In this document: positions 1 to 12,476 of the stretch, piece by piece
How the letters are laid out: every line of letters begins with the position of its first letter
Numbering within the stretch: position 1 is the first letter of the stretch
DNA from: Shouchella oshimensis
GTDB lineage: Bacteria > Bacillota > Bacilli > Bacillales > Bacillaceae_D
Reading direction: 5' to 3'
Length of the DNA: 64,000 bases
Assembly: GCF_002019765.1 (NCBI RefSeq)
Contig: NZ_KV917380.1
Location: forward strand, 3,831,836 to 3,895,835
Program-made: the position numbers and the translations under genes
Notes under the pieces: generated by a model
Told to the model about the DNA's origin: nothing
The model's input: the letters and a program-made list of their open reading frames with translations, nothing else
Databases searched by the model: none

Positions 1-1562
1 CTGAACAAATGAGTTGATACAGGATAGATGATTTGATCTTTGTGGATCATATGAAGGCGATTCTTATGGGCAACCATATCGATTTCATTTAGGGGAATTC
101 TCCCTTTTAATCGATCAGTGTGGCCGATGCAATCGATAAACGTATTGCTCTCTGATCGATAAGTTAAACCGACATCTTTAAAATAATTGCTCATATAGCT
201 TAATTCTGAATAGCCATGGGAATCCACTCCTTTACTCCCCTTACAAGACGAAAAACGACCTGTAAAAGAATAACGAGGGAAAGAAAACGCGTTAGGAGGT
301 AAAAGAAATCCAGCCTTACTCTCCACAATCTTGCAATCAAATGAAATAGGAATCCTACCGTCCCCTTTTTTCCCGTATAACGCTTTAATCGATAAAAAAT
401 CTTCTTCAGTAAGGGTAAGCGTTGGTTTATCGCTCACTCTATGCCACTGCATCATTTTGTTCAGAATGTATTTTTCAATTCGATTATCTCTATCATCAAA
501 AGACAGGTGCTGCATAAAACCCAGCCCAGCATCTTTATTTATCATCTCAAGTAAAGGGACTCTTGTGTAAAAGCCATATTTCCCTATAAACCGATTGTAA
601 TAGTTGTTCCAATCGATCCCTTGGTGTTTGTCAAAAAAAGCCATTAATTCTAGGGATTCTCCATTATCAAGGGCCTGTTTAATTTGTTCTTTATTCTCCA
701 AAGAATCGTATATAGACAAATCAACAAGTAAATATGAGGAACTTTTGCACAATGCCGCCATTTTTGAAACTAACGCTTTGTATACGTCAATCCCTTTGCC
801 AACTTCCAATTCCTTATAGTTATGTATTAATTCTTTAATTGTTTTTATAGATGAAACTAATTCAACATCGTACTTACTGTAGCTTAAAAGGCTTTCTAAA
901 AAAGCATCAGCATCTCTATTGATAGAATAAGTAGAAAGTTCAGTTTTTATAATATCTGATTTTAGTAGCTCTTGTATAACTCCTAACACTAGAGCTTTTT
1001 GAGAGTCTTGATATTGATCTAATAGTGTCTGACTATAAATAGGTGATCTTAAGGAATCGAACAAGTCTTTCAAAAACCTGGAACTTTCTAAATAAATGTA
1101 GGCCGTATTTTCTTTTGAAAACGTCTCTAACAAAAACTGTTGATCTTTCTCGTATAGTTTTGGATTTAACGTCAGTTTTATGTTGGAAAACGTAAGAATA
1201 GAATTTTCGAGTTTTTTTATTACATTTTGTTCCCACTCCACAGATATACTTACCTGTTTTAATTCGGTCCGCCCACGAAAACGGTCACTGTCATTCGTAC
1301 AGATTCCTGAGTTCATACGGTTAGGCTGCGGTCTCGCCGCCATTCTTAATAAATAGTTCACTACGGTTTTTTTTGTTTTTTTATCGATCTTTCTGTCTTC
1401 ATCAACAATTTTTTTTAACTTATTGTATAGGGGAGTACTATTTAGTAATATCCTTTCCAAGAAAGCCGAGTCTCTTATTACTTCATGCAAATACTCATCT
1501 TCTTCTTCAGTAAACAATTTGCGCACAGCAGAGAATTTTAATGCGGCTTTTCTTTTAATCAT
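1..1562 (-). CDS. LanB-type lantibiotic dehydratase (N-terminal part, truncated by window edge)
   Basis: This frame stays open from the ATG at 1562 to position 1, giving about 520 residues with no stop; the gene continues left of the window. A GGAGGAG site sits 5 nt before the ATG. The protein begins with the LanB-like N-terminal domain: a segment RMAARPQ near residue 75 stands where family members have R-x-x-RPTPFG, and GKYGFYTRVPLLEM near residues 324-338 matches the family's conserved YG-VPLLE stretch. LanB enzymes glutamylate Ser/Thr of a precursor using glutamyl-tRNA and then eliminate glutamate to give dehydro-residues; a sister group (PEARL) instead adds amino acids to the peptide C-terminus. 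Which applies depends on the C-terminal half, which is not visible. Four precursor genes lie directly upstream on the same strand. The weak RPTPFG match suggests a divergent member. Confidence 0.85.
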   Translation of the reverse strand, partial: MIKRKAALKFSAVRKLFTEEEDEYLHEVIRDSAFLERILLNSTPLYNKLKKIVDEDRKIDKKTKKTVVNYLLRMAARPQPNRMNSGICTNDSDRFRGRTELKQVSISVEWEQNVIKKLENSILTFSNIKLTLNPKLYEKDQQFLLETFSKENTAYIYLESSRFLKDLFDSLRSPIYSQTLLDQYQDSQKALVLGVIQELLKSDIIKTELSTYSINRDADAFLESLLSYSKYDVELVSSIKTIKELIHNYKELEVGKGIDVYKALVSKMAALCKSSSYLLVDLSIYDSLENKEQIKQALDNGESLELMAFFDKHQGIDWNNYYNRFIGKYGFYTRVPLLEMINKDAGLGFMQHLSFDDRDNRIEKYILNKMMQWHRVSDKPTLTLTEEDFLSIKALYGKKGDGRIPISFDCKIVESKAGFLLPPNAFSFPRYSFTGRFSSCKGSKGVDSHGYSELSYMSNYFKDVGLTYRSESNTFIDCIGHTDRLKGRIPLNEIDMVAHKNRLHMIHKDQIIYPVSTHLF

Positions 1563-1641
1563 ATGTACTCCTCCTTATGAGTTAAATCAAATTGTTCGAT
1601 TTTTTAACGTATTATTAGTAACGTATACGAATAGTAAATAA

Positions 1642-1673
1642 TTGTGTGGCATGGATCTAAGCACACCACACAA
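1642..1673 (-). terminator. Hairpin between precursor array and lanB
   Basis: Eight-bp arms TTGTGTGG and CCACACAA enclose a 16-nt loop between the last precursor stop (1698) and the lanB start (1562). The run after it on the minus strand is T-rich but interrupted. Lantibiotic operons often carry a leaky terminator here so that the precursor mRNA exceeds the enzyme mRNA; that role is inferred. Confidence 0.5.
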
Positions 1674-1697
1674 CCTTTTCGGAGAATAGATTCAAAC

Positions 1698-1838
1698 TTA
1701 GTTTGCTAGTTCTGGTCGAATAATCACTGATGCATAAATGGATGCTTCCATTTCTTGCATAACTGTTGATGACTTTACGCTATAATCTTCTAGTTTTACA
1801 TTAATATCATTTGAATTGATTACTTTTTTGTTTTCCAT
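1698..1838 (-). CDS. Cysteine-free RiPP precursor peptide, copy 1
   Basis: A 46-residue peptide starting MENKKVINSND and ending in RPELAN. AGGAG precedes the ATG by about 10 nt; an upstream in-frame TTG would add 20 residues but would have no ribosome site of its own. It is one of four tandem genes in front of a LanB-type dehydratase, which makes precursor the natural reading. The likely leader is residues 1 to about 22; the C-terminal part carries Ser23, Ser24, Thr25, Ser33, Tyr35 and Ser37 but no Cys anywhere, so classical lanthionine rings cannot form. Compared with copy 2 the coding differences are silent at codons 18, 29, 33 and 38, plus Lys5 versus Arg5. Function as antimicrobial or signal is unknown. 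Confidence 0.75.
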   Translation of the reverse strand: MENKKVINSNDINVKLEDYSVKSSTVMQEMEASIYASVIIRPELAN

Positions 1839-1898
1839 TTTAGGACAGCTCCTCTTTTTTTGTTTTTTTGATTTTATAGGCTGGTCATGCTTATACAA

Positions 1899-2039
1899 TT
1901 AGTTTGCTAGTTCTGGTCGAATAATTACTGATGCATAAATAGATGCTTCCATCTCTTGCATAACTGTTGATGACTTTACGCTATAGTCTTCTAGTTTTAC
2001 ATTAATATCATTTGAATTGATTACTCTTTTGTTTTCCAT
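1899..2039 (-). CDS. Cysteine-free RiPP precursor peptide, copy 2
   Basis: Same 46-residue peptide as its neighbours except Arg5 in place of Lys5. The 201-bp unit containing it appears identical at nucleotide level to the next one upstream (copy 3), which points to recent duplication or gene conversion. The ATG follows an AGGAG site by about 10 nt. The 60-nt spacer to the preceding stop is free of stops in this frame, which is why a longer 66-residue frame with a TTG start can be read; the internal ATG is preferred because of its ribosome site and because copy 4 has only the shorter form behind a strong AAAGGAGG. Confidence 0.72.
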   Translation of the reverse strand: MENKRVINSNDINVKLEDYSVKSSTVMQEMEASIYASVIIRPELAN

Positions 2040-2099
2040 GTTAGGACAGCTCCTCTTTTTTTGGTTTTTTGATTTTATAGGCTGGTCATGCTTATACAA

Positions 2100-2240
2100 T
2101 TAGTTTGCTAGTTCTGGTCGAATAATTACTGATGCATAAATAGATGCTTCCATCTCTTGCATAACTGTTGATGACTTTACGCTATAGTCTTCTAGTTTTA
2201 CATTAATATCATTTGAATTGATTACTCTTTTGTTTTCCAT
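2100..2240 (-). CDS. Cysteine-free RiPP precursor peptide, copy 3
   Basis: Identical protein to copy 2 (Arg5 form) and, by eye, an identical 201-bp repeat unit. Leader-like N-terminus rich in Asn, Asp and Lys, then a Ser/Thr cluster SSTV at residues 23-26 and a hydrophobic tail with the motif IIRPELAN. No Cys. A canonical FNLD leader box for class I lanthipeptides is not evident; the nearest acidic-hydrophobic stretch is VKLEDY at residues 14-19. Confidence 0.72.
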   Translation of the reverse strand: MENKRVINSNDINVKLEDYSVKSSTVMQEMEASIYASVIIRPELAN

Positions 2241-2300
2241 GTTAGGACAGCTCCTCTTTTTTTGGTTTTTTGATTTTATAGGCTGGTCATGCTTATACAA

Positions 2301-2441
2301 TTAGTTTGCTAGTTCTGGTCGAATAATTACTGATGCATAAATAGATGCTTCCATCTCTTGCATAACCGTTGATGACTTTACGCTATAGTCTTCTAGTTTT
2401 ACATTGATATCATTTGAATTGATTACTTTTTTGTTTTCCAT
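2301..2441 (-). CDS. Cysteine-free RiPP precursor peptide, copy 4 (promoter-proximal)
   Basis: First gene of the array. Its ribosome site AAAGGAGGTCC is stronger and unlike those of the other three copies, and its 5' flank is unique sequence, which fixes the start at the ATG (46 residues). Lys5 form. Silent differences from copy 3 are seen at Ile12 and Thr25. The upstream segment has a TATAAT -10 box embedded in a palindrome. Being promoter-proximal with its own leader, this is probably the ancestral copy from which the 201-bp units were duplicated. Confidence 0.75.
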   Translation of the reverse strand: MENKKVINSNDINVKLEDYSVKSSTVMQEMEASIYASVIIRPELAN

Positions 2442-2507
2442 TTTAGGACCTCCTTTCTTCGTTTCTTCTTTTCTTCTTCATTAGAATACAATGGATACTT
2501 ATTGAGG

Positions 2508-2527
2508 AATGTATTATAAAATACATT
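2508..2527 (-). promoter_or_regulatory. Palindrome over the -10 of the precursor-lanB operon
   Basis: AATGTATT and AATACATT form a perfect 8-bp inverted repeat around a 4-nt centre, about 70 nt upstream of the first precursor start. The minus-strand -10 box TATAAT (2513-2518) lies inside it. No good -35 box is found 17 nt further up. Overlap of a dyad with the -10 suggests a repressor operator, or an activator-dependent weak promoter; the regulator is not in the window. Confidence 0.5.
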
Positions 2528-2724
2528 TTCAAATTTTTTAGATAATTATTTTTAAAATTGAATGCCGTCTTTGTTTTTCCTGTTGAATGACGATTATAAG
2601 AATAGATCGTATTAAGTTTTCAAGTAAGATATGTGGTTTAACATTAATCGCGACATTAACATGGGCGCTAATATCAGCCTTAATTAAACTGTTACAAAGT
2701 CATTACTCACAAATAAAGAAAAAA

Positions 2725-2987
2725 GAGGCTCGGACAAAAGTAGATAGACAGACCAAAATGACGAACATTCCCGAAAATAGGAACGTTCGTCATTTGCTTT
2801 ATATGATAAGAGAATTCGAAGATTCCTGGGGATCAGCACGTGTCTGAAGACTCTGGAGTGGCGGTTTTTCACGGAGGAGGCTGAGGCCGTGTCCCCGGAA
2901 AGCGAAGGATTCTCCTGTAGCGGTACTACTCAGCATAGTTTAGACTATTCGTCTTTTCAACTACTACTTTTCGTTATGTCCCAGCCT
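2725..2987 (+). repeat. MITE-like terminal-inverted-repeat element, copy 1
   Basis: About 263 bp, bounded by GAGGCTCGGACA and TGTCCCAGCC. Nearly the same sequence recurs at 10652-10926, 31709-31983 and 40741-41015. Near its left end a hairpin with arms close to ATGACGAACATTCC. This copy is diverged (GGCTCGGACA for GGCTGGGACA, a dozen bases deleted) and lies between the 3' end of the glutaminase gene and the 5' flank of the RiPP operon. Confidence 0.85.
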
Positions 2988-3069
2988 TTTTTTATTTTTT
3001 TCTGTTTAGCGATATAAAATTAAAAAGCCTGATATTGCTTATCGTTGTCGCTATTCTTCATCCTCTTTT

Positions 3070-3999
3070 TTAAAACATCGATAACGAATACTGCCTCGAC
3101 ATCATTTCTAGCAACCGGATACCTGCGATTGAATTCCCCTTATCATCCAAGGAGGGACCGAATATACCGATGCCACATTTTTTAGGAATGGAACCCATAA
3201 TTCCACCCGCAACTCCACTTTTTGCTGGAATACCGACATTAATCGCAAATTCTCCTGATGCATTATACATGCCGCAAGTTACCATAAACGTTTTACAAAT
3301 GCGGGCGACATCTACAGGAATGATTTGTTCATCGGTTTCAGGGTTACGTCCATCCATCGCCAACACACAGCCAATTCTTGCTAAATCATTGCAATTCATT
3401 TCAATTGCACATTGCTTCGTATAAAGGTCCATTAATCCTTCAATGTCTTCTGTGATAACATCATGTTGCTTCATAAAGAACGCAAGCGCTCGATTTAAGT
3501 CCGCTGTGTCATATTCGGACTTCGCAATTTCTTCATTATACGATATGGTCTCATTGCTTGATAAACAACGTATAAATTCAATCAACCGTTCAAAACGATG
3601 CTCAACAGACTCTCCTTTTATCATATGAGTAACGGCAAGAGCACCTGCATTAATCATTGGATTTAACGGCTTCGAAGGCTTATTTGTTTCTAATTTAGCG
3701 ATTGAATTAAACGGATCTCCCGTTGGCTCTTTTCCCACACGTTGAAACACATACTCCTCTCCGTGGTCGATTAACGCAAGGGCTAAGGCAAGGACCTTTG
3801 AGATGCTTTGTAAGGTAAAATTTTCATTTGTATCTCCTGCTGAATAGAGGCGTCCATCGGGATAAAATAACGCTACAGATAATTTTTCTTGCTCTGCTTT
3901 GGCGAGTGCAGGTATATAATCTGCTACATTCCCATCATGAATCACCTCTCTCGCTTGATTCACTAATAGCTGCAATTCATCATTTGATTGGCACAGCAT
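3070..3999 (-). CDS. glsA: Glutaminase A
   Basis: A 309-residue serine-dependent glutaminase that hydrolyses L-glutamine to glutamate and ammonia in the cytosol. The beta-lactamase-fold nucleophile motif S-x-x-K is at Ser65-Ile-Ser-Lys68, followed by the family's NPMINAGAL segment near residue 115 and a glycine-rich SGVAGGIMG near 265. Length agrees with the family (about 305-330). GAGGAG lies 9-10 nt before the ATG. It stands alone; the next gene upstream is divergent across about 200 bp. Start and identity are secure; whether it serves nitrogen metabolism or acid/ammonia balance is not shown by the sequence. Confidence 0.95.
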   Translation of the reverse strand: MLCQSNDELQLLVNQAREVIHDGNVADYIPALAKAEQEKLSVALFYPDGRLYSAGDTNENFTLQSISKVLALALALIDHGEEYVFQRVGKEPTGDPFNSIAKLETNKPSKPLNPMINAGALAVTHMIKGESVEHRFERLIEFIRCLSSNETISYNEEIAKSEYDTADLNRALAFFMKQHDVITEDIEGLMDLYTKQCAIEMNCNDLARIGCVLAMDGRNPETDEQIIPVDVARICKTFMVTCGMYNASGEFAINVGIPAKSGVAGGIMGSIPKKCGIGIFGPSLDDKGNSIAGIRLLEMMSRQYSLSMF

Positions 4000-4202
4000 T
4001 CAAACCACTCCTCTTTCTCTTTATCATCTCACCTATTTTATCCGCTATCCCACAAAGAGCTGGAATTTAAACATTGCAAGCGTTTCTCCGCTACTTTTCA
4101 ATCTGTTAAGACAGTTTTACGTAATCTTTAACAGCTCTTAACTAGTTATGGGGTCTATTCTGCCATAAACTAGAGGTAAGAAATCTCTTAGGAGTGAAGA
4201 TC

Positions 4203-4391
4203 ATGTATACAGCAGAAGATTTACGAGCAGTTGAAGAACGTGCGCAACAGTTTTTGCCAACCGCTACGAGCGAATTATCTGCCTACTTGCGCGCCATTGA
4301 AGAATATGTTCGCAAAAAACGCAACGTACTTCCTTTTGAACAAGCAGAACATCTTGAGACACAGCTACTCGTCCATTATGGCCTTGAATAA
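4203..4391 (+). CDS. Small hypothetical protein (62 aa)
   Basis: A 62-residue protein rich in Glu, Leu and Ala, predicted helical, without signal peptide or membrane segment. TAGGAG lies 8 nt before the ATG at 4203; an in-frame GTG at 4194 overlaps that site and is not preferred. I do not recognise the family. Two short helices seem likely, the second with FEQAEHLETQLL. The gene is divergent from glutaminase and is followed by about 200 bp of non-coding DNA. Confidence 0.65.
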   Translation: MYTAEDLRAVEERAQQFLPTATSELSAYLRAIEEYVRKKRNVLPFEQAEHLETQLLVHYGLE

Positions 4392-4451
4392 ACGGCCTAT
4401 ACATACTTTTCTATAAGGAGGCCTTTGTGCCCCTCTTTGTTCTTTTAACCA

Positions 4452-4486
4452 TTACCTGCTTCTTATACGATTATGAGAACAGGTAA
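4452..4486. other. Imperfect hairpin in the 4392-4594 intergenic gap
   Basis: TTACCTG and CAGGTAA form the outer arms and TTCTTAT and ATGAGAA the inner arms of a long imperfect hairpin. No clean U-run follows on either strand. It may be a weak terminator for the small gene upstream or a stabilising mRNA structure. The rest of the gap holds only the ribosome site of the ferredoxin gene. Confidence 0.3.
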
Positions 4487-4594
4487 ATTCTTAAAAATAT
4501 CTACGCCTTCTCCCCTCTGTAGAATCACCGTTCTACTTCGTTTACTTTCATGCTACACTTATTAAGAGGATGTATGTAGAAGGGAATGAATGAT

Positions 4595-4918
4595 ATGCCA
4601 ATGATTCATGCTGAAGGCTACCACAGCTTCCGTGCGGAACAAGGGAAGAAACTTGTTCTTGCTCTAGAGGATAACGGCGTTGATATCCTTCATCGCTGTG
4701 GCGGAAAAGCACGCTGTACGACGTGTCTTTGCGAAATTGTCGACGGAGATGCTGGTCCTATTAGTGAAATAGAAGCTGCTGCCCGAGAGAAAAAAGGGAT
4801 TACAGCTGAAAATTTGCGCCTCTCCTGCCAAATTCGTATTGAGAAAGACTTAAAAGTGAAACCTTTGCGAACAGCAACAAGCGAACAAATGGACCCTGGC
4901 ACTCGACCAGAGGAATGA
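4595..4918 (+). CDS. 2Fe-2S plant-type ferredoxin-like protein
   Basis: A 107-residue single-domain ferredoxin carrying electrons through a [2Fe-2S] cluster. Ligands are Cys35, Cys41, Cys44 and Cys78, giving the plant-type spacing C-x5-C-x2-C and a distant fourth Cys in LSCQ; an extra Cys46 follows. The ATG at 4595 has AGAAGGG about 9 nt upstream; an ATG at 4586 lies too close to it and would add three residues. The C-terminal tail is acidic and non-conserved. No redox partner is adjacent, so its donor and acceptor are unknown. A strong terminator follows. Confidence 0.88.
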   Translation: MPMIHAEGYHSFRAEQGKKLVLALEDNGVDILHRCGGKARCTTCLCEIVDGDAGPISEIEAAAREKKGITAENLRLSCQIRIEKDLKVKPLRTATSEQMDPGTRPEE

Positions 4919-4924
4919 CACCGG

Positions 4925-4963
4925 AAACAAGAGCTGATGCCTAGGCATCAGCTCTTGTTTTCT
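4925..4963 (+). terminator. Rho-independent terminator of the ferredoxin gene
   Basis: An uninterrupted palindrome with 17-nt arms (AACAAGAGCTGATGCC and its complement) followed by TTTTC, directly after the stop codon at 4918. Confidence 0.85.
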
Positions 4964-5040
4964 AATTCTTGAACCATCAAAGATCAATCGTGAAGGAAAG
5001 CCGCTACCGTTTTGCCTATTCTTTTTTTCGCCACCAACCT

Positions 5041-5910
5041 TTAAGAACATCCTTCCTTACTATTTTTTCCGACCTGTTCCATTACGCTATACAGTGACAA
5101 CCATTCATTTTCACGATAGACAAAATAGGTTTCGACCATACTATATTTTGAGGGTAAGGCATTGAATGTAATGTTCGTATGATTTTTCACTACAGAATAA
5201 GGCAAGATGGAAATACCCATTCCATTTTTCACACAACCAATTATGGCTTCAATTGATCCGAATTCCATTTTTCGCGTAGTCGTGAGAGCATGATCGTACA
5301 AGAAGGTTTCTAACAACTGCCGATAGGAGCATCCTGTTTTAAAAGTAAGCATATTCTGGCCTTCTAATTGAACAAATGTAGAATCAAGCCTTCCCCCTAA
5401 ACTCTTTGATGTGATTAAGACCATTTCTTCTTTGAAAATTGGAAAGCCTTTAATTCCTGACTTGTTGATGAATCCTGCGATAAATCCTGCGTCTATTTCA
5501 TAATTTATTAATTTGTTTACTATTTGTTCCGACGTTCCTGTCTCCAAGTTAATTAATACGTTAGGATACGTACGATAGACTTCCGCTAAAAGAGATGGAA
5601 GCCGTATAGCTGCTGTCGTCTCCATTGACCCAATAAACAATTCTCTGAAAATCTCTTTCTTACTCATCATTTCATTTGTTTGTTCCCAGTAATGTAACAA
5701 TGTAACTGTTCGTTCGTATAGAACTTTACCTTCATTCGTTAGTCTGACACCGTGAGGAGTTCGCAAGAAAAGATTACATTGATAATAGGCTTCCAACCGT
5801 TTCATTTTCATGGTGACATTTGATTGACCGACTCTAAAAACTTCAGCAGCCTTGGACATACTATTCTGCTTGGCAACTTCAACAAATGTTTTTAAATCAT
5901 CCATTCTCAA
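5041..5910 (-). CDS. LysR family transcriptional regulator
   Basis: A 289-residue LysR-type regulator: N-terminal winged helix-turn-helix (residues 1-60, with LKTFVEVAKQNSMSKAAEVF and SNVTMKMKRLE) and a C-terminal substrate-binding-like effector domain. The start is a TTG at 5910 with GGTGGAG 5 nt before it; an ATG two codons in is the alternative. It is divergent from the MFS transporter gene across about 115 bp and by the usual LysR logic probably controls it and itself. The inducer is unknown. Confidence 0.9.
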   Translation of the reverse strand: MRMDDLKTFVEVAKQNSMSKAAEVFRVGQSNVTMKMKRLEAYYQCNLFLRTPHGVRLTNEGKVLYERTVTLLHYWEQTNEMMSKKEIFRELFIGSMETTAAIRLPSLLAEVYRTYPNVLINLETGTSEQIVNKLINYEIDAGFIAGFINKSGIKGFPIFKEEMVLITSKSLGGRLDSTFVQLEGQNMLTFKTGCSYRQLLETFLYDHALTTTRKMEFGSIEAIIGCVKNGMGISILPYSVVKNHTNITFNALPSKYSMVETYFVYRENEWLSLYSVMEQVGKNSKEGCS

Positions 5911-6024
5911 ATTAACTCCACCTTATCAATTTTTTTGAACTCTGATATAAATTATAAACATTATTAATGATATCACAATTAGCGTAAACTAAATCAATAA
6001 GCGTTTTGATAGGTGGGAGCACAT
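5911..6024. promoter_or_regulatory. Divergent LysR/MFS control region
   Basis: AT-rich 114-bp spacer between two divergent starts with several short dyads, such as GATAT near 5943 and ATATC near 5970. A T-N11-A LysR site is plausible there but no single one stands out. Confidence 0.4.
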
Positions 6025-7194
6025 ATGAATAATAGAGAAACCTTTCGTTTACTAGTTATTGGTTTTATTAGCCTTACGATTGTTATAGGTATCGGACGAT
6101 TTCTCTTCACCCCGATACTTCCTTATATGGAAATAGGAACAAGTCAATCATTTTCAGCGCTAGGAATGTTAGCCACTTGGAACTATATTGGGTATTTTAT
6201 AGGAGCATTTGCAGCGAGGACGATCCAACCTACAGGTACATCAATGATTCTTCTGTTAATTACAAATGGGCTAATGACTGTCTTAATGGGATTAATGGAT
6301 GATTATTTTATGTGGGTTTTGTTTAGACTTCTTTCTGGTATTAGCAGCGGTTTCATATTTGTATTCGCCACTAATCTGGTTTTAGGTCGTTTCGTTCAAC
6401 TAAACCAAACTCAATACTCAGGCTATTTATATAGTGGCGTTGGCTTTGGCATCTTGTTATCTGGAGGTTTTACACCTTTCATCACGAATTCTGTTAACTG
6501 GTCATTTACCTGGCTATTCTTCGGACTCATTAGTCTATTATTAACAGTCATCGTCGCCTTTATGATGAATGTAATGCCACGGGATAAGACGGAAACCACT
6601 TTTACAGCCCGGGTCCCATCTAAGTACCATAGTAAGAAAAAAAAGATTGCCCTTTATTTATCTTATCTGTTTGAAGGGTTTGGGTATATTATTTATGCCA
6701 CTTTCATTACTGGGCTGCTTGCTAACAATAACGTTTCTTTTGAACCCTCTTATATTTGGGCAATTGTGGGTCTGGGAGCTATTCCATCTTGTATAGTGTG
6801 GTCTTGGCTTGGAAAGAAAATATCAGCTTCAAAAGCCTTAAAGTACGCATATTTTATTCAGATTCTCGCTGTCTTTATACCAGTATTATCACAACATTTA
6901 CTTTTAATTGTCCTTTCAGCATTTCTTTTTGGAGGAACATTTCTAGGGATCATTACCCTTACAATGAATATAAGCAAGCAATTTAAAGACAGTAAGAATC
7001 TCGTAAGTGGATTAACGGCAATTTACGCTTTAGGGCAAATTATAGGTCCTTCTGTTGCCAGTCTGTTTATTAAGTTCATACATTTCCAGTTTTCCTTTCT
7101 TTTAGCTGGTTTTGCTCTAGTACTATCGTTTATCATTGTAGCTGCTTCATTTACATCCAACGCTCCTTTTCATTCTAAATTTAATCGAGATTAA
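6025..7194 (+). CDS. YbfB/YjiJ family MFS transporter
   Basis: A 389-residue membrane protein with about 12 hydrophobic segments. The N-terminus IGFISLTIVIGIGRFLFTPI, with the G-x-GRF-x-(F/Y)TP signature, is typical of the YbfB/YjiJ branch of the major facilitator superfamily, whose members are small-molecule or amino-acid exporters of poorly known substrate. The ATG at 6025 is preferred because AGGTGGGAG (6011-6019) is its ribosome site; a GTG at 6013 lies inside that site. It is divergent from the LysR gene and presumably under its control. Confidence 0.88.
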   Translation: MNNRETFRLLVIGFISLTIVIGIGRFLFTPILPYMEIGTSQSFSALGMLATWNYIGYFIGAFAARTIQPTGTSMILLLITNGLMTVLMGLMDDYFMWVLFRLLSGISSGFIFVFATNLVLGRFVQLNQTQYSGYLYSGVGFGILLSGGFTPFITNSVNWSFTWLFFGLISLLLTVIVAFMMNVMPRDKTETTFTARVPSKYHSKKKKIALYLSYLFEGFGYIIYATFITGLLANNNVSFEPSYIWAIVGLGAIPSCIVWSWLGKKISASKALKYAYFIQILAVFIPVLSQHLLLIVLSAFLFGGTFLGIITLTMNISKQFKDSKNLVSGLTAIYALGQIIGPSVASLFIKFIHFQFSFLLAGFALVLSFIIVAASFTSNAPFHSKFNRD

Positions 7195-7283
7195 GGAAGA
7201 TTACATTAACGAGGCGAATTGACATTCACTATGAACTTTACTTTGTATCGCATGAATAAACTTGTTAATCTATGCCTAATCTA

Positions 7284-8081
7284 TTAAAGATTACGAATAA
7301 ATAAAAGCTCAGTTAAAATGTTATTCGATAGTTCGGTGTTAGCCTTTTTTTCTATTAGATTTAAATAGATAGCGTTTAAAAGTGCCATATAATTTGTTCG
7401 TATTCTATAAAAAGACACCCCAGCTACATTTCGCTCTAATTCTAATTTCTGTTTCATCCAAGCTAATAATTCGTTTAACTCTGTTTGTGTCTTACTTAAA
7501 CAAATGATACTTGTTAAAGGAAATGCTATTCTTTCTTGCTCATCATCTATAAATACGATCCCTTTTGACAGAGGCTCCACCACTTTAGTTATTGAACTAG
7601 ATAGTATTTTTCTACCGATTGAAGAGTATTGAACAATGGAATCCAGTAGATCCGCTGTATGCGCAATCGAGTGTGCCCATCCTTTATTTTCCACATAGCC
7701 TCGTAGATCTTTTTCACCCACCATCACCTTTAGACTATTACTGGCCAGATCTTTTAACAAGTCGTCATCCACCGTGTATCGAGCGTTTAAAATTGCAGCA
7801 CATACAATAGCCGAGAAAGACCTTTTAAAAACAGAATCAGTCTCTTTTTCACCTAATCCTGTTAACAAATTTTTGTTGCAAACCTCTAGTATAAAATTTA
7901 CTTGTTTGTGTTCTAATTGTTTATTACGTATCCATTTATGAAAAGTCCCGTATATCAGGTTATCTCTTAAAACTGGATCCGTACTTCCAATTGAATGCAA
8001 CATATTATTAATTAATTCATTTGAGTGTGTTGTTGTCGAATTTGATAGTAGATCTTTTAAATTTGAATACGGTTCCTTCAT
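7284..8081 (-). CDS. DUF2785 domain protein
   Basis: A 265-residue soluble protein. The stretch KGWAHSIAHTADLLD near residues 133-147 is the hallmark of DUF2785, a helical-repeat family of unknown activity found mainly in Bacillales. No signal peptide or membrane segment. The ribosome site is weak (AGAGTG). It is convergent with the MFS gene and sits upstream of nothing on its own strand except arsenic genes oriented the same way, with a terminator-like hairpin downstream of arsC separating them. Confidence 0.8.
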   Translation of the reverse strand: MKEPYSNLKDLLSNSTTTHSNELINNMLHSIGSTDPVLRDNLIYGTFHKWIRNKQLEHKQVNFILEVCNKNLLTGLGEKETDSVFKRSFSAIVCAAILNARYTVDDDLLKDLASNSLKVMVGEKDLRGYVENKGWAHSIAHTADLLDSIVQYSSIGRKILSSSITKVVEPLSKGIVFIDDEQERIAFPLTSIICLSKTQTELNELLAWMKQKLELERNVAGVSFYRIRTNYMALLNAIYLNLIEKKANTELSNNILTELLFIRNL

Positions 8082-8149
8082 TCTTTTTTCACTCTACCCT
8101 CATCATTTAATTTAAGCCATCATGCCTTATTAGGAATTCCTGCTAGTAG

Positions 8150-8188
8150 AAAAAACACAGAATCCTGCAAAGGAGCTGTGTTTTCCAC
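8150..8188 (-). terminator. Terminator of the arsRBC operon
   Basis: On the minus strand, AAAACACAG and CTGTGTTTT arms with a U-run, immediately after the arsC stop at 8190. Confidence 0.8.
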
Positions 8189-8189
8189 T

Positions 8190-8606
8190 TTATTCCCCTG
8201 TTTCTTTAAATGCTTTTATTCTTAGACCAATCTCATCACGGACACGTTGAAAACATGCCCATTTTTCTTCTTCGGAACCTTCTGCTTTGGCAGGATCATC
8301 AAACCCCCAATGAGCACGCTTTACATGAGGTGGCGTCATTGGACATTTATCAGCCGCATCTCCACATAACGTTACAACGAAGTCTGCGTTGTTAAGCAAT
8401 ACATCGTCAACCATGTCTGACGTCTGGTTGGAAATGTCCATTTCTACTTCCTCCATCACTTTAACAGCATTTGGATTTAAACCATGGGCTTCAATGCCTG
8501 CACTATATACATCCCATTCATCTTGCAAATAATACTTTGCCCAGCCTTCAGCCATTTGCGAGCGGCATGCGTTTCCTGTACATAAAAAGTAGATTGTTTT
8601 TTTCAT
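8190..8606 (-). CDS. arsC: Arsenate reductase, thioredoxin-coupled
   Basis: A 138-residue low-molecular-weight phosphatase-fold arsenate reductase that converts As(V) to As(III) for export. The P-loop CTGNACRS carries nucleophile Cys9; the redox pair used for thioredoxin recycling is Cys81 and Cys88 in CGDAADKC. This is the pI258/B. subtilis type, not the glutaredoxin type. GAAGGAG precedes the ATG. Last gene of arsR-arsB-arsC, 13 nt after arsB. Confidence 0.96.
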
Positions 8607-8619
8607 GCTTCATTCTCCT

Positions 8620-9918
8620 TCAGTAAATGATTAATAGCCATATATATAAGCCAAGTAAGGTAAGGAATAGAACAGGAATCGTAATAATAATCCCTGTCTT
8701 GAAATATGTTCCCCATGAAATTCTCACACCTTTTTTAGAAAGCACGTGTAACCAAAGCAACGTAGCAAGTGAACCAATTGGGGTAATTTTCGGCCCTAAG
8801 TCCGCGCCAATAACATTGGCATAAATTAAGGCTTCCTTCGTCAACCCAGTTGTTCCTGATTCACCTATGGCAATGGCGTTAATTAAAACCGTTGGCAAGT
8901 TGTTCATAATGGATGAAAGAATAGCGGCTATAAAGCCCATTCCCATTGTCGCAACAAAAAGCCCTTGGTCTGCTATGATAAAAATAGCATCTGCTAATAC
9001 ATCGGTTAACCCGACATTGCGTAGTCCATAAACAACGACATACATTCCAATAGAAAAGAAAACGATATTCCATGGAGCTCCTTTTAGGACAGCTGTTGTA
9101 TTTACGACAGAGCTCGTTCTAGAAATAAGTAAGAATAAAATAGCTATGACACCAGCAACAATCGATACTGGCATTCCAACGAATTCACTGCCCATGTAGC
9201 CAACAAGAAGTAATCCTAATACGACCCAAGAGAGGCGAAACATTCTTCGATCTTTAATCGCCAACATCGGCTCTTTGAGTTGAGCGTAATCATACCGTCT
9301 CGGGATGCTCTTTCTAAAATAAAGAAGCAAGACAATAATACTTGCGATTAGAGCAAAAAGGTTTGGCACGATCATATGTGTGGCATATTCAATAAAGCCA
9401 ATACCAAAATAATCTGCTGAAACAATGTTCACTAAATTACTCACGATAAGTGGAAGTGACGTTGTGTCAGCAATAAATCCACTTGCAATAATGAATGGGA
9501 AAACCATTTTTTCGTTAAAATTTAACGAACGAACCATTGCTAACACAATAGGCGTTAAAATTAATGCAGCACCATCGTTGGCAAAAAAAGCGGCAACAAT
9601 TGAACCTAGTAAACAGACATAAACAAACATAAGAACGGCATTTCCTTTAGCCACCCTCGCCATATGGAGAGCTGACCATTCAAAAAAGCCAATCTCATCT
9701 AGAATGAGGGAGATAATAATGACGGCAATGAACGTAAGCGTTGCATTCCAGACAATCCCTGTTACATCAATCACATCAGTAAAATGAACCACACCAAGTA
9801 AAAGAGCAAGTAAAGCTCCCCCACAAGCTGACCATCCAATGTTCAAGTTTTTTGGTTGCCAAATAACAAACACTAACGTTACGACAAAGATCAACGAAGC
9901 TATTATGACATCTACCAT
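8620..9918 (-). CDS. arsB: Arsenite efflux permease ArsB
   Basis: A 432-residue polytopic membrane protein of the ArsB/NhaD ion-transporter family, with about 11-12 hydrophobic segments and family motifs [15 protein letters not shown] and [11 protein letters not shown]. It exports arsenite (and antimonite) using the proton motive force. Length matches B. subtilis/staphylococcal ArsB (429-430). It has an AAAGGGGA ribosome site and lies 13 nt after arsR. No arsA ATPase is present. Confidence 0.95.
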
Positions 9919-9931
9919 TGTTTAGTCCCCT

Positions 9932-10273
9932 TTAACAGCTCGCAAGCCCTTCTCTTTCTAAAGCTTGAAGATAACGTTCATCTTGATCGTCACTATATTG
10001 AAGAAGATCACGAACTACAGGAAAATAAGTAGAGGTCGTATTGAGAGTGAAGTAGCGCCATTGCTCTCTTTTTTCTTCTGTTAGTATCCCTAAATCTTTT
10101 AATTTCCGTAAATGCTGACTCACAGCTGGTTGACTGATCCCGAGCATTTCAACGAACTCGCACACACAATAGGTCTTCTTCTCAACTAATTTAAGCATTA
10201 AAAAACGAGTTGGATCACCAATAACCTTTAAGCATGCAGTTAGCTCAGACATTGGTAATGTTGTATGTTCCAT
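9932..10273 (-). CDS. arsR: ArsR family arsenic-responsive repressor
   Basis: A 113-residue winged-helix repressor. Cys36 and Cys38 in YCVCEF occupy the alpha-3 metalloid site (family motif ELCVCDL); the recognition helix region is SQPAVSQHLRKLKDLG. As(III) or Sb(III) binding releases the operator. It is the first gene of arsRBC, and an inverted repeat upstream fits its operator, implying autoregulation. Confidence 0.95.
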   Translation of the reverse strand: MEHTTLPMSELTACLKVIGDPTRFLMLKLVEKKTYCVCEFVEMLGISQPAVSQHLRKLKDLGILTEEKREQWRYFTLNTTSTYFPVVRDLLQYSDDQDERYLQALEREGLASC

Positions 10274-10314
10274 ATATGAATCACCTCTCTGAAAACCATT
10301 ATATAATCAAATAA

Positions 10315-10352
10315 ATATATAAGTCAAAGTATATATTAATATTGACTTATAT
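10315..10352. promoter_or_regulatory. ArsR operator candidate
   Basis: ATATAAGTCAA (10317-10327) and TTGACTTATAT (10342-10352) are perfect inverted arms separated by 14 nt, 40-80 nt upstream of arsR. The TTGAC half-sites would also supply a -35 box. Long AT-rich dyads of this sort are typical of ArsR-family operators. Confidence 0.65.
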
Positions 10353-10441
10353 AACTTCTTCCTTCTTTCCTGTATCATCAAAATCTACAGATACACCTGT
10401 TCAATGAAATGTTAAAACACTAGATATGGAAGAAACTCTCA

Positions 10442-10466
10442 GTTTACATTGCGATAAAGAGGGAAT
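10442..10466 (+). promoter_or_regulatory. Sigma-B-type promoter of the lmo0937-family gene
   Basis: GTTTAC (10442-10447), 13-nt spacer, GGGAAT (10461-10466): close to the sigma-B consensus GTTTAA-N12-15-GGGTAT, 33 nt before the start codon at 10499. Confidence 0.6.
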
Positions 10467-10498
10467 CGATAACATATCCATAAAAGGAGGGCTGACTT

Positions 10499-10645
10499 AT
10501 GCTCTGGACTGCACTTATTGTTATTTTAGTATTATGGTTACTTGGCTTTATTGGCGATATTGGTGGGAATCTTGTTCACATTTTATTAGTCGTTGCACTC
10601 GTTGTATTGATTTTTCAACTCATTTCTGGTCGTCGAAAAGTTTAA
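10499..10645 (+). CDS. Lmo0937-family small membrane protein (48 aa)
   Basis: A 48-residue peptide with two hydrophobic segments (about residues 4-18 and 24-42) linked by GFIGDIGGN and ending in SGRRKV. This pattern is the lmo0937 family of small membrane proteins, common in Firmicutes and linked to general stress in Listeria. AAAAGGAGG lies 8 nt before the ATG. The sigma-B-type promoter just upstream fits a stress role. Molecular function is unknown; a membrane-protective role is a guess. Confidence 0.82.
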   Translation: MLWTALIVILVLWLLGFIGDIGGNLVHILLVVALVVLIFQLISGRRKV

Positions 10646-10651
10646 CGAAAA

Positions 10652-10926
10652 GAGACTGGGACAAAAGTAGATAGACAGACCAAAATGACGAACATTCCTG
10701 AAAATAGGAATGTTCGTCATTTGTTTTATATGAACATGAGCGGAAGGAGAATCCGAAGCCTCCTGGGGGATCAGCACGTGTCTGAAGACTCTGGAGTGGC
10801 GGTTTTTCACGGAGGAGGCTGAGGCCGTGTCCCCGGAAAGCGAAGGATTCTCCTGTAGCGGTGCTACTCAGCATAGTTTAGACTATTCGTCTTTTCAACT
10901 ACTACTTTTCGTTATGTCCCAGCCTC
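10652..10926 (+). repeat. MITE-like terminal-inverted-repeat element, copy 2
   Basis: 275 bp with ends GAGACTGGGACA and TGTCCCAGCCTC; same orientation as copy 1. It begins 6 nt after the stop of the lmo0937-family gene and fills the gap to the convergent nucleotidase gene, so it may also act as a terminator for both. Short frames inside it are conserved among copies only because the element is. Confidence 0.9.
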
Positions 10927-10978
10927 TTTTTACTTTAAAACATAGAAATAGTGATGGCTGGTGCTCTTCACATTGGCT

Positions 10979-11503
10979 TTATTTAAGAAAATAGTCTCTT
11001 ACATTTGCCCACGAGTTCACACGAATAAAACGATTCTCATGAATGTTATGAGGTGCTGTAAAAAGAATACCCTCTCCTGTAAATCGCTCGAGCTGATACA
11101 CATTGTCATCTATTAAATAATCTGCTTTTATGACACTCTTATCGCCACAAAAGACAAAATGCTGGTCATCTAAAAAAGGAAAATGCTCTTGAAGCCATTC
11201 ATACTTTGCTGTAAAAGAGGTTGGAAAATGCATCGCTGCTGTCGCAATATAAATTTCAAACGACTCGCTTAATTCTTTAATCACCTCTTGTGCGTCTTTC
11301 ATCACGTCTAAATCGCGAAAATAAGTAGGGTCTTTTAAATACTCTCTAATCTCATCCACTAAGTGCGGACGCAAATCCCTTAGTTTTTTACCTTGTAAAT
11401 CTTCCAATGTGATCGCTTCATTGTAATCTGCATTAAAAAGTGCAAGATGTTTTTTTGTGAAGTCCGCCATCACTTCATCCATATCAATGGCAATGCGCTT
11501 CAT
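10979..11503 (-). CDS. 5'(3')-deoxyribonucleotidase-like HAD phosphatase (NT5C family)
   Basis: A 174-residue protein of the NT5C branch of the HAD superfamily. Motif I is DMDEVMADF near the N-terminus (nucleophile Asp7, acid Asp9), and the late acidic motif YLIDDNVYQLE is near residue 133. Family members dephosphorylate deoxynucleoside monophosphates. The ATG at 11503 follows GGGAGTGG by 5 nt; the longer frame to 11545 adds 14 residues without a ribosome site. It is divergent from pspA. Substrate is inferred from the family. Confidence 0.85.
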   Translation of the reverse strand: MKRIAIDMDEVMADFTKKHLALFNADYNEAITLEDLQGKKLRDLRPHLVDEIREYLKDPTYFRDLDVMKDAQEVIKELSESFEIYIATAAMHFPTSFTAKYEWLQEHFPFLDDQHFVFCGDKSVIKADYLIDDNVYQLERFTGEGILFTAPHNIHENRFIRVNSWANVRDYFLK

Positions 11504-11606
11504 ACGTCCACTCCCTGTCTTCTGTCTTTTCCTTAAGCATACCACAGTGAGGTAGTTCGGCAGAAGCTAAGCCCGCCTTTTTTTGATCAGAACATGAAAT
11601 TGAAAA

Positions 11607-11633
11607 TGAAACCATTTCGATTTCCTTTACGTA
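11607..11633 (+). promoter_or_regulatory. Sigma-W-type promoter of pspA
   Basis: TGAAAC (11607-11612), 17-nt spacer, CGTA (11630-11633), matching the ECF sigma-W consensus TGAAAC-N16-17-CGTA, about 70 nt upstream of pspA. The B. subtilis pspA homologue is also controlled by sigma-W. Confidence 0.65.
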
Positions 11634-11705
11634 TTTACATCTATAAGCAAGCAAGATATGCTATGTTAGGAATAGTTCGTTATTATAGTAAAGGGGGAAG
11701 ATCCG

Positions 11706-12380
11706 ATGTTTCGTTTCTTTAATCGTGTTCGTACTATTGTCTCTTCCGAATTAAATTCAATGTTGAACAAAGCAGAAGATCCAGGCAAGATGCTTGATCA
11801 ATATTTGCTTGATATGGAAAAAGACATTTCTGAGGTTGAAGCAGCAGTTGCCAAGCAAATCGCAAACGAAAAAATGCTTAAAAAACAAGCCGATGAGGCT
11901 GCTGAACTCGTTTCTAAACGAGAAGAGCAAGCCATGCGCGCACTTGAATCTGGTGACGAAGACCTTGCTCGTCGTGTATTGGAAGACAAAAATAAACATG
12001 TAGGTCAACGCGATGCACTACAAGAGTCTCATGCTGAATCAGCGAGATTATCAGAAGAACTAAAAGATAAGCTTCGTGAGATGAAAGACGAATACCGTGA
12101 TATGAATATGAAGAAAGATTCACTAAAAGCACGTTCAGAAAGCGCTAAAGCTCGTGCAAAAGTAAATGAATCACTTTCTTCTATTGGTAATAGTGGTGCT
12201 CGTGGCGGTTTTAACCGAATGGAAGAAAAGGTCATGCGTCAAGAAGCAGAGGCAGACGCTAAAGGTGAGCTAAGAAGTGCTAATAAATCACTTGATGATG
12301 AATTAGCGGCTCTTGATAAATCCAGCGGCGTTGACGATGAGCTTGCCGCTTTAAAAGCAAAGCTAAATAGTAATAAATAG
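11706..12380 (+). CDS. pspA: PspA/IM30 family membrane-stress protein
   Basis: A 224-residue, mostly coiled-coil protein of the PspA/IM30/LiaH family (ESCRT-III-like). It begins with the amphipathic FRFFNRVRTIVSSELNSML segment that contacts membranes, continues with charged heptad helices to about residue 150 and ends with a short variable tail. Such proteins form membrane-bound rods or rings that seal stressed membranes. AAAGGGGGAAG precedes the ATG. It is monocistronic with a terminator after the stop; the sigma-W-type promoter upstream supports induction by cell-envelope stress. Confidence 0.93.
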   Translation: MFRFFNRVRTIVSSELNSMLNKAEDPGKMLDQYLLDMEKDISEVEAAVAKQIANEKMLKKQADEAAELVSKREEQAMRALESGDEDLARRVLEDKNKHVGQRDALQESHAESARLSEELKDKLREMKDEYRDMNMKKDSLKARSESAKARAKVNESLSSIGNSGARGGFNRMEEKVMRQEAEADAKGELRSANKSLDDELAALDKSSGVDDELAALKAKLNSNK

Positions 12381-12384
12381 CCTC

Positions 12385-12415
12385 AAAAAGGATGATCAGC
12401 TGATCATCCTTTTTT
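12385..12415 (+). terminator. Terminator of pspA
   Basis: Perfect palindrome AAAGGATGATCAGC and its complement, then a T-run, just after the stop at 12380. Confidence 0.88.
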
Positions 12416-12476
12416 CTTGCCCTCTTCGTGATTCAAACTGATTTGATTATTTTCTTAACAAAAACGTTTAAAAGGT

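Follow-up and report, generated by a model that had tools for sequence, protein, structure and literature searches.

What can a LanB-type enzyme make from a precursor without cysteine? This question is raised by a 64,000-nucleotide stretch of Shouchella oshimensis DNA (here called the window), in which four tandem genes for short cysteine-free peptides stand directly before a lanB gene that is cut by the window's edge. The initial annotation had rightly noted that such peptides make lanthionine rings impossible, and had offered three ways out: a product with dehydro- or D-residues only, another use of Ser/Thr, or a PEARL-type extension of the C terminus. With a leftward extension of the window (L005; window position = L005 position - 15000), we consider it likely, at a probability of roughly 0.8, that the cluster encodes a pyridine-forming (pyritide) pathway. 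The partner gene that is decisive for this reading lies outside the window and was therefore not visible from its sequence.

Four cysteine-free precursors under apparent selection

All four precursor genes lie on the minus strand (copy 1, 2301 to 2441; copy 2, 2100 to 2240; copy 3, 1899 to 2039; copy 4, 1698 to 1838), each with 46 codons from ATG to TAA and with GGAGG or GAGGAG on its 5' side. The leader, MENKK...EMEA in copy 1, is followed by the core SIYASVIIRPELAN. As originally described, the four 46-residue proteins are the same apart from residue 5, which reads K, R, R, K along transcription, and codon 5 is the only replacement site among the copies. Copies 2 and 3 have the same 201-bp unit, base for base; copies 1 and 4 show 6 codon differences, each of them silent, in line with the count of about six made earlier. 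Selection on the peptide or gene conversion had been proposed as the cause. When compared to the four copies in a second genome of the genus (L008), ours showed 5 to 11 silent codon differences and no replacement codon (K5 copies) or one (R5 copies); because these differences are mostly silent, they point to selection on the precursor peptide, and it is this part of the proposal that gained support. A precursor search of the 4.06-Mb genome gave four matches at E ≤ 1.

The gap between array and lanB holds a terminator-like hairpin of 14 pairs (1640 to 1675, minus strand), the only one found in a scan for this type (shuffled sequences gave 0.6 ± 0.8). Its z-score is -2.27, with 6 of 200 shuffles equally good. 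The hairpin sequence is also present in L008 and was not evident in two other relatives (L027 and L033). Attenuation between array and lanB is possible.

The initial annotation had warned that a cysteine-containing precursor elsewhere in the operon might be the true substrate. None emerged from a scan of the cluster's gaps: two Cys-bearing mechanical ORFs (L005:12626-12706, minus strand, and 12349-12435, plus strand) had no precursor-like leader, and neither was present in the same gap of L008.

LanB is a fused dehydratase by its domains and motifs

LanB is encoded by the next gene on the array's strand, as had been reported from its 5' part (window positions 1 to 1562, minus strand); the full gene (L005:13701-16562) specifies 953 amino acids. 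Profile searches of the full protein, including the elimination-domain check suggested earlier, gave Lant_dehydr_N at 2.7e-45, Lant_dehydr_C at 3.8e-13 and TIGR03891 at 8.9e-16. By these matches it is a fused dehydratase, with predicted glutamylation and elimination domains in one protein, and it can be aligned to NisB and MadB. All 11 homologues examined retain RYGG and HMxxNR, and 10 of the 11 retain HxRxR, with VLRIR instead in G397; in NisB, these three motifs hold the residues for elimination. The glutamylation half still has both Arg of R-x3-R, and the usual PFGLF is PNRMN in our protein (region of residues 73 to 86). This position is occupied by PNRMN, PNRIN, PNRLN or PSRLN in 4 of 4 LanBs of the azole-free group described below, and by PFGLF or PYGLF in the 7 others.

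The elimination domain bears directly on the idea of a PEARL-type ligase extending the C-terminal ELAN, which a LanB-like enzyme beside a Cys-free peptide might suggest. PEARLs have a glutamylation-like domain and, according to PMC11962472, typically no elimination domain, whereas our LanB has this domain together with its motifs. The precursor C termini moreover differ among relatives (ELAN, VTK, IDR, TRP and TKP) and a pyridine synthase homologue adjoins lanB, so that a PEARL is now hardly credible.

The gene after lanB encodes a putative pyridine synthase

The extension showed the following gene order: four precursors, LanB, a 333-aa protein, a 41-residue peptide, a 198-aa protein, a Crp-like regulator, a divergent XRE-TPR regulator and an MFS protein (L005:8102-9367, minus strand). 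The search for further partners recommended at the outset thus yielded a synthase homologue, regulators and a transporter, with no YcaO or LanC found in the cluster.

The 333-aa protein (PyrD; L005:12713-13714, minus strand, outside the window) is encoded with a 14-base overlap with lanB. A Pfam scan of it was without match. Against NCBIfam NF045556 (TbtD_PbtD_pyrid, 'thiopeptide maturation pyridine synthase') it scored 1.9e-4, or 20.8 bits versus a cut-off of 325, and 7 of 7 aligned family members matched the same model at E ≤ 1 (best, 1.1e-8). A PDB sequence search with the synthase profile returned one chance match only (E 1.4). An AlphaFold model was made for the Virgibacillus homologue, which is 58% identical to our protein (8-row alignment, pLDDT 86.6). 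When this model was compared to the PDB with Foldseek, the first 12 chains were all pyridine synthases or [4+2] aza-cyclases (TbtD, PbtD and variants), at E 4.3e-9 to 7.9e-7 and with TM 0.65/0.68 for the first; the next chain was a LanB, at E 5.7e-3. By alignments chained from PbtD/TbtD through the synthase of G299 to ours, PbtD FRRYRLLLNLTYLQMSRLG aligns without gaps to LIANRWVTNALYKKLLLLG, and the catalytic Tyr (PbtD Y293, TbtD Y319) corresponds to Y289, numbered by hand after removal of a three-residue offset. This Tyr is present in 13 of 13 synthase sequences, one of them the G299 outgroup, and TbtD Y319 variants have been reported to accumulate a non-aromatic intermediate (PMC12018205). 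From alignment and model, the 333-aa protein appears to be a [4+2] pyridine synthase of the TbtD/PbtD kind at the family level, with this putative activity.

Among the original suggestions, it is the other use of Ser/Thr that fits such a neighbor, and a product with only dehydro- or D-residues has lost ground to it. The only reductase among the seven ORFs scanned is a short-chain dehydrogenase (L005:7140-7991), which we place outside the cluster because its DNA also matched in the cluster-free genome G012. One could still picture LanB making dehydroalanines in a peptide that stays linear or is cross-linked otherwise, with another role for the synthase-like protein, and the low sequence similarity to characterised synthases would agree with this. 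The family-level fold match and the conserved catalytic Tyr speak against it, as does the result that neither LanC nor protease families were found among the seven ORFs, and we judge it improbable.

In sum of its parts, the cluster has a Cys-free precursor with two core serines, glutamylation and elimination encoded as judged by domains and motifs (the glutamylation motif being diverged), and a candidate [4+2] synthase of the TbtD/PbtD/MroD kind, assigned at family level and below the NCBIfam cut-off. Azole-forming genes, which would be expected of a thiopeptide and not of a pyritide, were not found in the cluster ORFs. The core Cys and cluster LanC of a lanthipeptide are both missing. In place of the two-protein dehydratase that is usual for pyritides, though not defining, there is one 953-aa protein.

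The azole-free clusters form a clade beside azole-bearing relatives

LanB matches at 1e-10 were found in 18 of 398 related genomes, with at most two candidates scored per genome; 7 (ours included) were full-length, and the other 11, aligned in the N-terminal part only, were set aside. A synthase gene directly follows lanB in all 7 full-length loci. The synthase is rare, given its few matches across the samples: its profile matched in 8 of the 397 genomes that represent the order, the remote G299 included, in 1 of 398 genomes of the phylum sample (our own) and in 1 of 44 of the Halobacillus family, and our sequence alone matched in 2 of 149 relatives. Scanning genome contigs with the single sequence gave 14 stretches with no relative among them, and the alignment-based scan gave 54 stretches that included 9 relatives. 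No match to plasmids or phages was obtained by tblastn.

The relatives belong to two groups. The azole-free group comprises our cluster, that of G007 (L008), Halobacillus litoralis, Virgibacillus sp. YIM 98842 and a 3.3-kb Lentibacillus fragment (L034), on which no precursor was found. The azole-bearing group comprises Sutcliffiella (two named species), Priestia taiwanensis, Chengkuizengella axinellae, Paenibacillus caui, G378 and G397. Loci on the same contigs (L027/L032, L028/L040 and L030/L038) were counted once, and so were L035/L036, which come from a single strain and carry the same precursor on separate contigs. In both trees the azole-free group was one clade with support 1.0. Its branch is long, and in the synthase tree the outgroup joins that branch too (0.77).

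Four azole-free loci carry 4, 4, 5 and 7 precursor copies, 5 being those of Halobacillus and 7 those of Virgibacillus. The distinct cores are SIYASVIIRPELAN, SYVGSVIIVTK, SWVGSVITIDR, SGVMSIIVITRP and SGVASIIIITKP; they start with SIYAS, SYVGS, SWVGS, SGVMS or SGVAS, so that only S1 and S5 are invariant within the first five positions. Like ours, the sister clusters have a fused LanB, a homologous synthase and a similar leader box, SS(A/S)TVLxxMGA|S. Unlike ours, they have YcaO and MatE genes (Pfam-tested in Priestia only, elsewhere judged by gene order and size) and two extra proteins at ThiF-like and SagB-like places, which are named by position and gave no Pfam match in Priestia. Their cores, SxGxNSCS, contain Cys in 7 of 7 precursors. 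Since some sister tails, e.g., VVVTQQ, resemble VIIVTK, S8 of the sister cores may correspond to S5 of the azole-free ones.

A recent insertion of the cluster in the genus was considered and is disfavoured: cluster-free G012 still encodes the final 57 residues of the MFS protein at 100% identity, a remnant that suggests deletion there.

A predicted 11-membered ring and its rivals

In the proposed pathway, LanB would turn S33 and S37, which are S1 and S5 of the core, into dehydroalanines by tRNA-dependent glutamylation followed by elimination, and the TbtD/PbtD-like enzyme would couple the two by a formal aza-[4+2] reaction. Once water is lost and the leader has left as a carboxamide, the result would be a 2,3,6-trisubstituted pyridine, which would complete an 11-membered ring spanning Ile-Tyr-Ala and carry the tail VIIRPELAN. 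The leader would come off without a protease, and the MFS protein would probably export the product. The predicted monoisotopic mass is 1473.80 ([M+H]+ 1474.81) with the tail untrimmed, and that of the leader amide is 3671.78 with the start Met kept. The doubly dehydrated precursor would have a mass of 5163.59, and for the Halobacillus litoralis locus (L032) products of 1093.62 and 1160.60 are predicted.

The ring size follows from the pyritides of Micromonospora rosaria, in which MroA1 (S1/S6) gives 14 atoms and MroA2 (S1/S7) gives 17 (PMC9247985): with the second Ser at position j the ring has 3j - 4 atoms, and S1/S5 would give 11. Our precursor also shares the A|S junction of MroA, and its hydrophobic tripeptide after the second Ser resembles the WVI of MroA (PMC9247985, Table 1). 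It differs in that the Trp important in MroA is absent and in that further residues follow the tripeptide, which is the C terminus of MroA (PMC9247985). Closure of 8- and 11-membered rings failed with MroD (PMC9247985), and the Laz enzymes likewise gave no 11-membered ring (PMC7210931); 14 atoms was the smallest ring obtained with MroBCD (PMC9247985) and with the Laz enzymes (PMC7210931). Either the azole-free clade closes a smaller ring, or the ring partners differ. We place the 11-membered ring between S1 and S5 only a little above even odds.

Different partners could be S24 and S33, as core positions 1 and 10, which would make a 26-membered ring of the thiopeptide type, a known size (PMC7210931), and leave S37 as dehydroalanine. 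A Ser nine residues before S33 is indeed conserved in 7 of 7 distinct azole-free precursors, and one of the 7 sister precursors, that of Priestia, has it too, an occurrence that moved our estimate slightly away from the 11-membered ring and toward this alternative. In the other 6 sister precursors, however, Ala stands at that place beside homologous enzymes and a nearly identical leader box. The stretch that S24 and S33 would enclose is leader-like and near-invariant, whereas the residues between S33 and S37 vary, and the A|S junction at S33 is the same as that of MroA (PMC9247985). The S24/S33 pairing is thus unlikely, while being the strongest of the rivals.

The failure of 11-membered closure in two other systems (PMC9247985, PMC7210931) could also be taken to mean that the reaction is intermolecular, with Dha1 meeting the position-5 azadiene of another peptide to give a head-to-tail cyclic dimer or oligomer joined through pyridines. 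An intermolecular reaction of TbtD has been reported, according to a reference title in PMC9247985, and the many precursor copies (4, 4, 5 and 7) would suit such a product, although copy number has simpler reasons. If it were true, the tandem array would supply a ribosomal product of a new kind, a cyclic dimer (predicted mass 2947.60) or oligomer. We know of no natural pyridine-linked, head-to-tail dimer or oligomer of this kind and consider the reading a long shot, on a par with the linear or cross-linked peptide.

A candidate operator and regulators accompany the array

Upstream of the array lies a candidate palindromic operator, ATGTATTATAAAATACAT (2509 to 2526), whose 16-bp core TGTATTNTANAATACA matched once in the 4.06-Mb genome, with 0 matches for the reversed-pattern control. 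A candidate -10 box, TATTCT (2483 to 2488, minus strand), begins 22 bases after GTATTTTATAATAC. The combination of GTATTTTATAATAC, 20 to 24 bases and a -10 pattern was found at 6 sites in 4 azole-free loci (one before each of the four arrays, one before the Halobacillus lanB and one before a small Virgibacillus gene), with 22-base spacing in 6 of 6; the palindrome was spotted first and the -10 rule added later, TANNNT occurring at 2.2 to 2.6% of positions in the loci scanned. In seven sister loci the palindrome was absent or had 3 to 4 mismatches. In Virgibacillus, the array operator at L033:2186 also precedes a gene for a 34-residue peptide, MKKTNSN...NEQQ.

A sigma-70 consensus scan of window positions 1400 to 2800 gave 2 sites (6.6 expected), none at the array. 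This speaks against a promoter there, but would agree with one that lacks a -35 box and depends on an activator. NtcA-activated promoters have the form GTA-N8-TAC, with TAN3T some 22 bases further on. The Crp-like protein of the cluster (L005:11008-11736 as listed, minus strand; a start at 11613 is likelier) matched the models for PtrA (3.6e-11) and NtcA (3.8e-10), in both cases with a score well short of the cut-off, and on account of these matches it is probably the activator that would turn on the array.

The Crp-like gene adjoins that for the 198-aa protein (L005:11603-12199, minus strand) in four azole-free loci; the latter has no Pfam family above cut-off and its structure model reached a pLDDT of 32.5. 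Beside the XRE-TPR gene (L005:9622-10929, plus strand), this run is headed in four loci by a short peptide with A(S)DE(Y/L)QPGP(F/Y), here of 41 residues with a hydrophobic N terminus (L005:12202-12327, minus strand; homologues at L008:13429-13557, plus, L027:15360-15485, minus, and L033:11290-11421, plus). This arrangement suggests a candidate RRNPP-type pheromone, a cell-density signal, with secretion judged by eye. PADLOC matched ten models on the three regulatory or unclassified proteins, with every match confined to the N-terminal HTH part of the XRE protein, and an Rfam scan of window positions 1 to 12000 gave no match at the gathering threshold.

Relation to known systems

The closest described pathway, mro for pyritides A1 and A2 (PMC9247985), shares Cys-free precursors, the absence of azole genes, LanB-type dehydration of two Ser, a [4+2] synthase, the A|S junction and hydrophobic residues after the second Ser. 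It differs from ours in having MroB plus MroC rather than a fused LanB from Bacillota, S-X4-S or S-X5-S cores (14 or 17 atoms) rather than S-X3-S (11, as predicted), and two precursors rather than the 4 to 7 in tandem of our family; our tails are longer and without Trp after the second Ser, and regulators and exporter differ (PMC9247985). Thiopeptides such as thiomuracin and GE2270 (TbtD/PbtD) have the pyridine synthase fold and catalytic Tyr in common with our cluster, and unlike it have azoles, a split dehydratase and 26- to 35-membered rings (PMC7210931). Class I lanthipeptides (NisB) share the fused LanB, unlike our cluster with its Cys-free precursor and no LanC. According to PMC11962472, the dehydratases of thiopeptides and pyritides consist of two proteins, and according to PMC12710340, Bacillota thiopeptides use another recognition sequence.

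A search of open-licence PMC full text showed no Bacillota pyritide, fused-LanB pyritide or 11-membered natural product in the titles and abstract starts among the matches listed; such relatives may already be listed in the founding pyritide paper (Org. Lett. 2021) or in a supplementary table of natural precursors. From sequence, the cluster is best read as a new type of pyritide pathway, with Bacillota hosts, a fused LanB, tandem precursors, an S-X3-S core and a dedicated operator. Two enzymes, one a fused dehydratase, would suffice for it, to our knowledge the shortest such line. Pyritide enzymes are useful for macrocyclic peptide libraries, and a natural S-X3-S family offers a direct test of the 14-atom limit and might be a source of enzymes that close tighter rings. 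With the sister clade, one enzyme pair is represented both with and without azoles, which also opens the step between thiopeptides and pyritides to study.

Other observations at and beyond the locus

Window positions 2587 to 2847 hold the remnant of a transporter gene, EamA-like by eye, which is intact in G007 (L008:7031-7918) and part of whose DNA matched in G012. A dispersed repeat occurs in two copies (2684 to 2936 and 10586 to 10874), and the ORFs on both translate nearly alike.

A YcaO encoded elsewhere in the genome could act in trans, which we counted against the pyritide reading. The match (G000:C1:3608013-3608567, L064) lies about 225 kb from the array in a further possible RiPP cluster, with a second ORF similar by eye and ABC-transporter-like ORFs alongside. 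The only LanC-like match of the genome (G000:C1:3623717-3624040, L065), about 210 kb from the array, falls in an 881-aa open frame, a possible RiPP gene, which by eye also has kinase-like features, the combination found in class III/IV lanthipeptide synthetases. The outgroup genome G299 carries a different, thiopeptide-like cluster (L049, G299:C1:1446000-1460500) with separate proteins of 298 and 382 aa, the latter matching TbtD and PbtD weakly (E 0.046 and 0.57).
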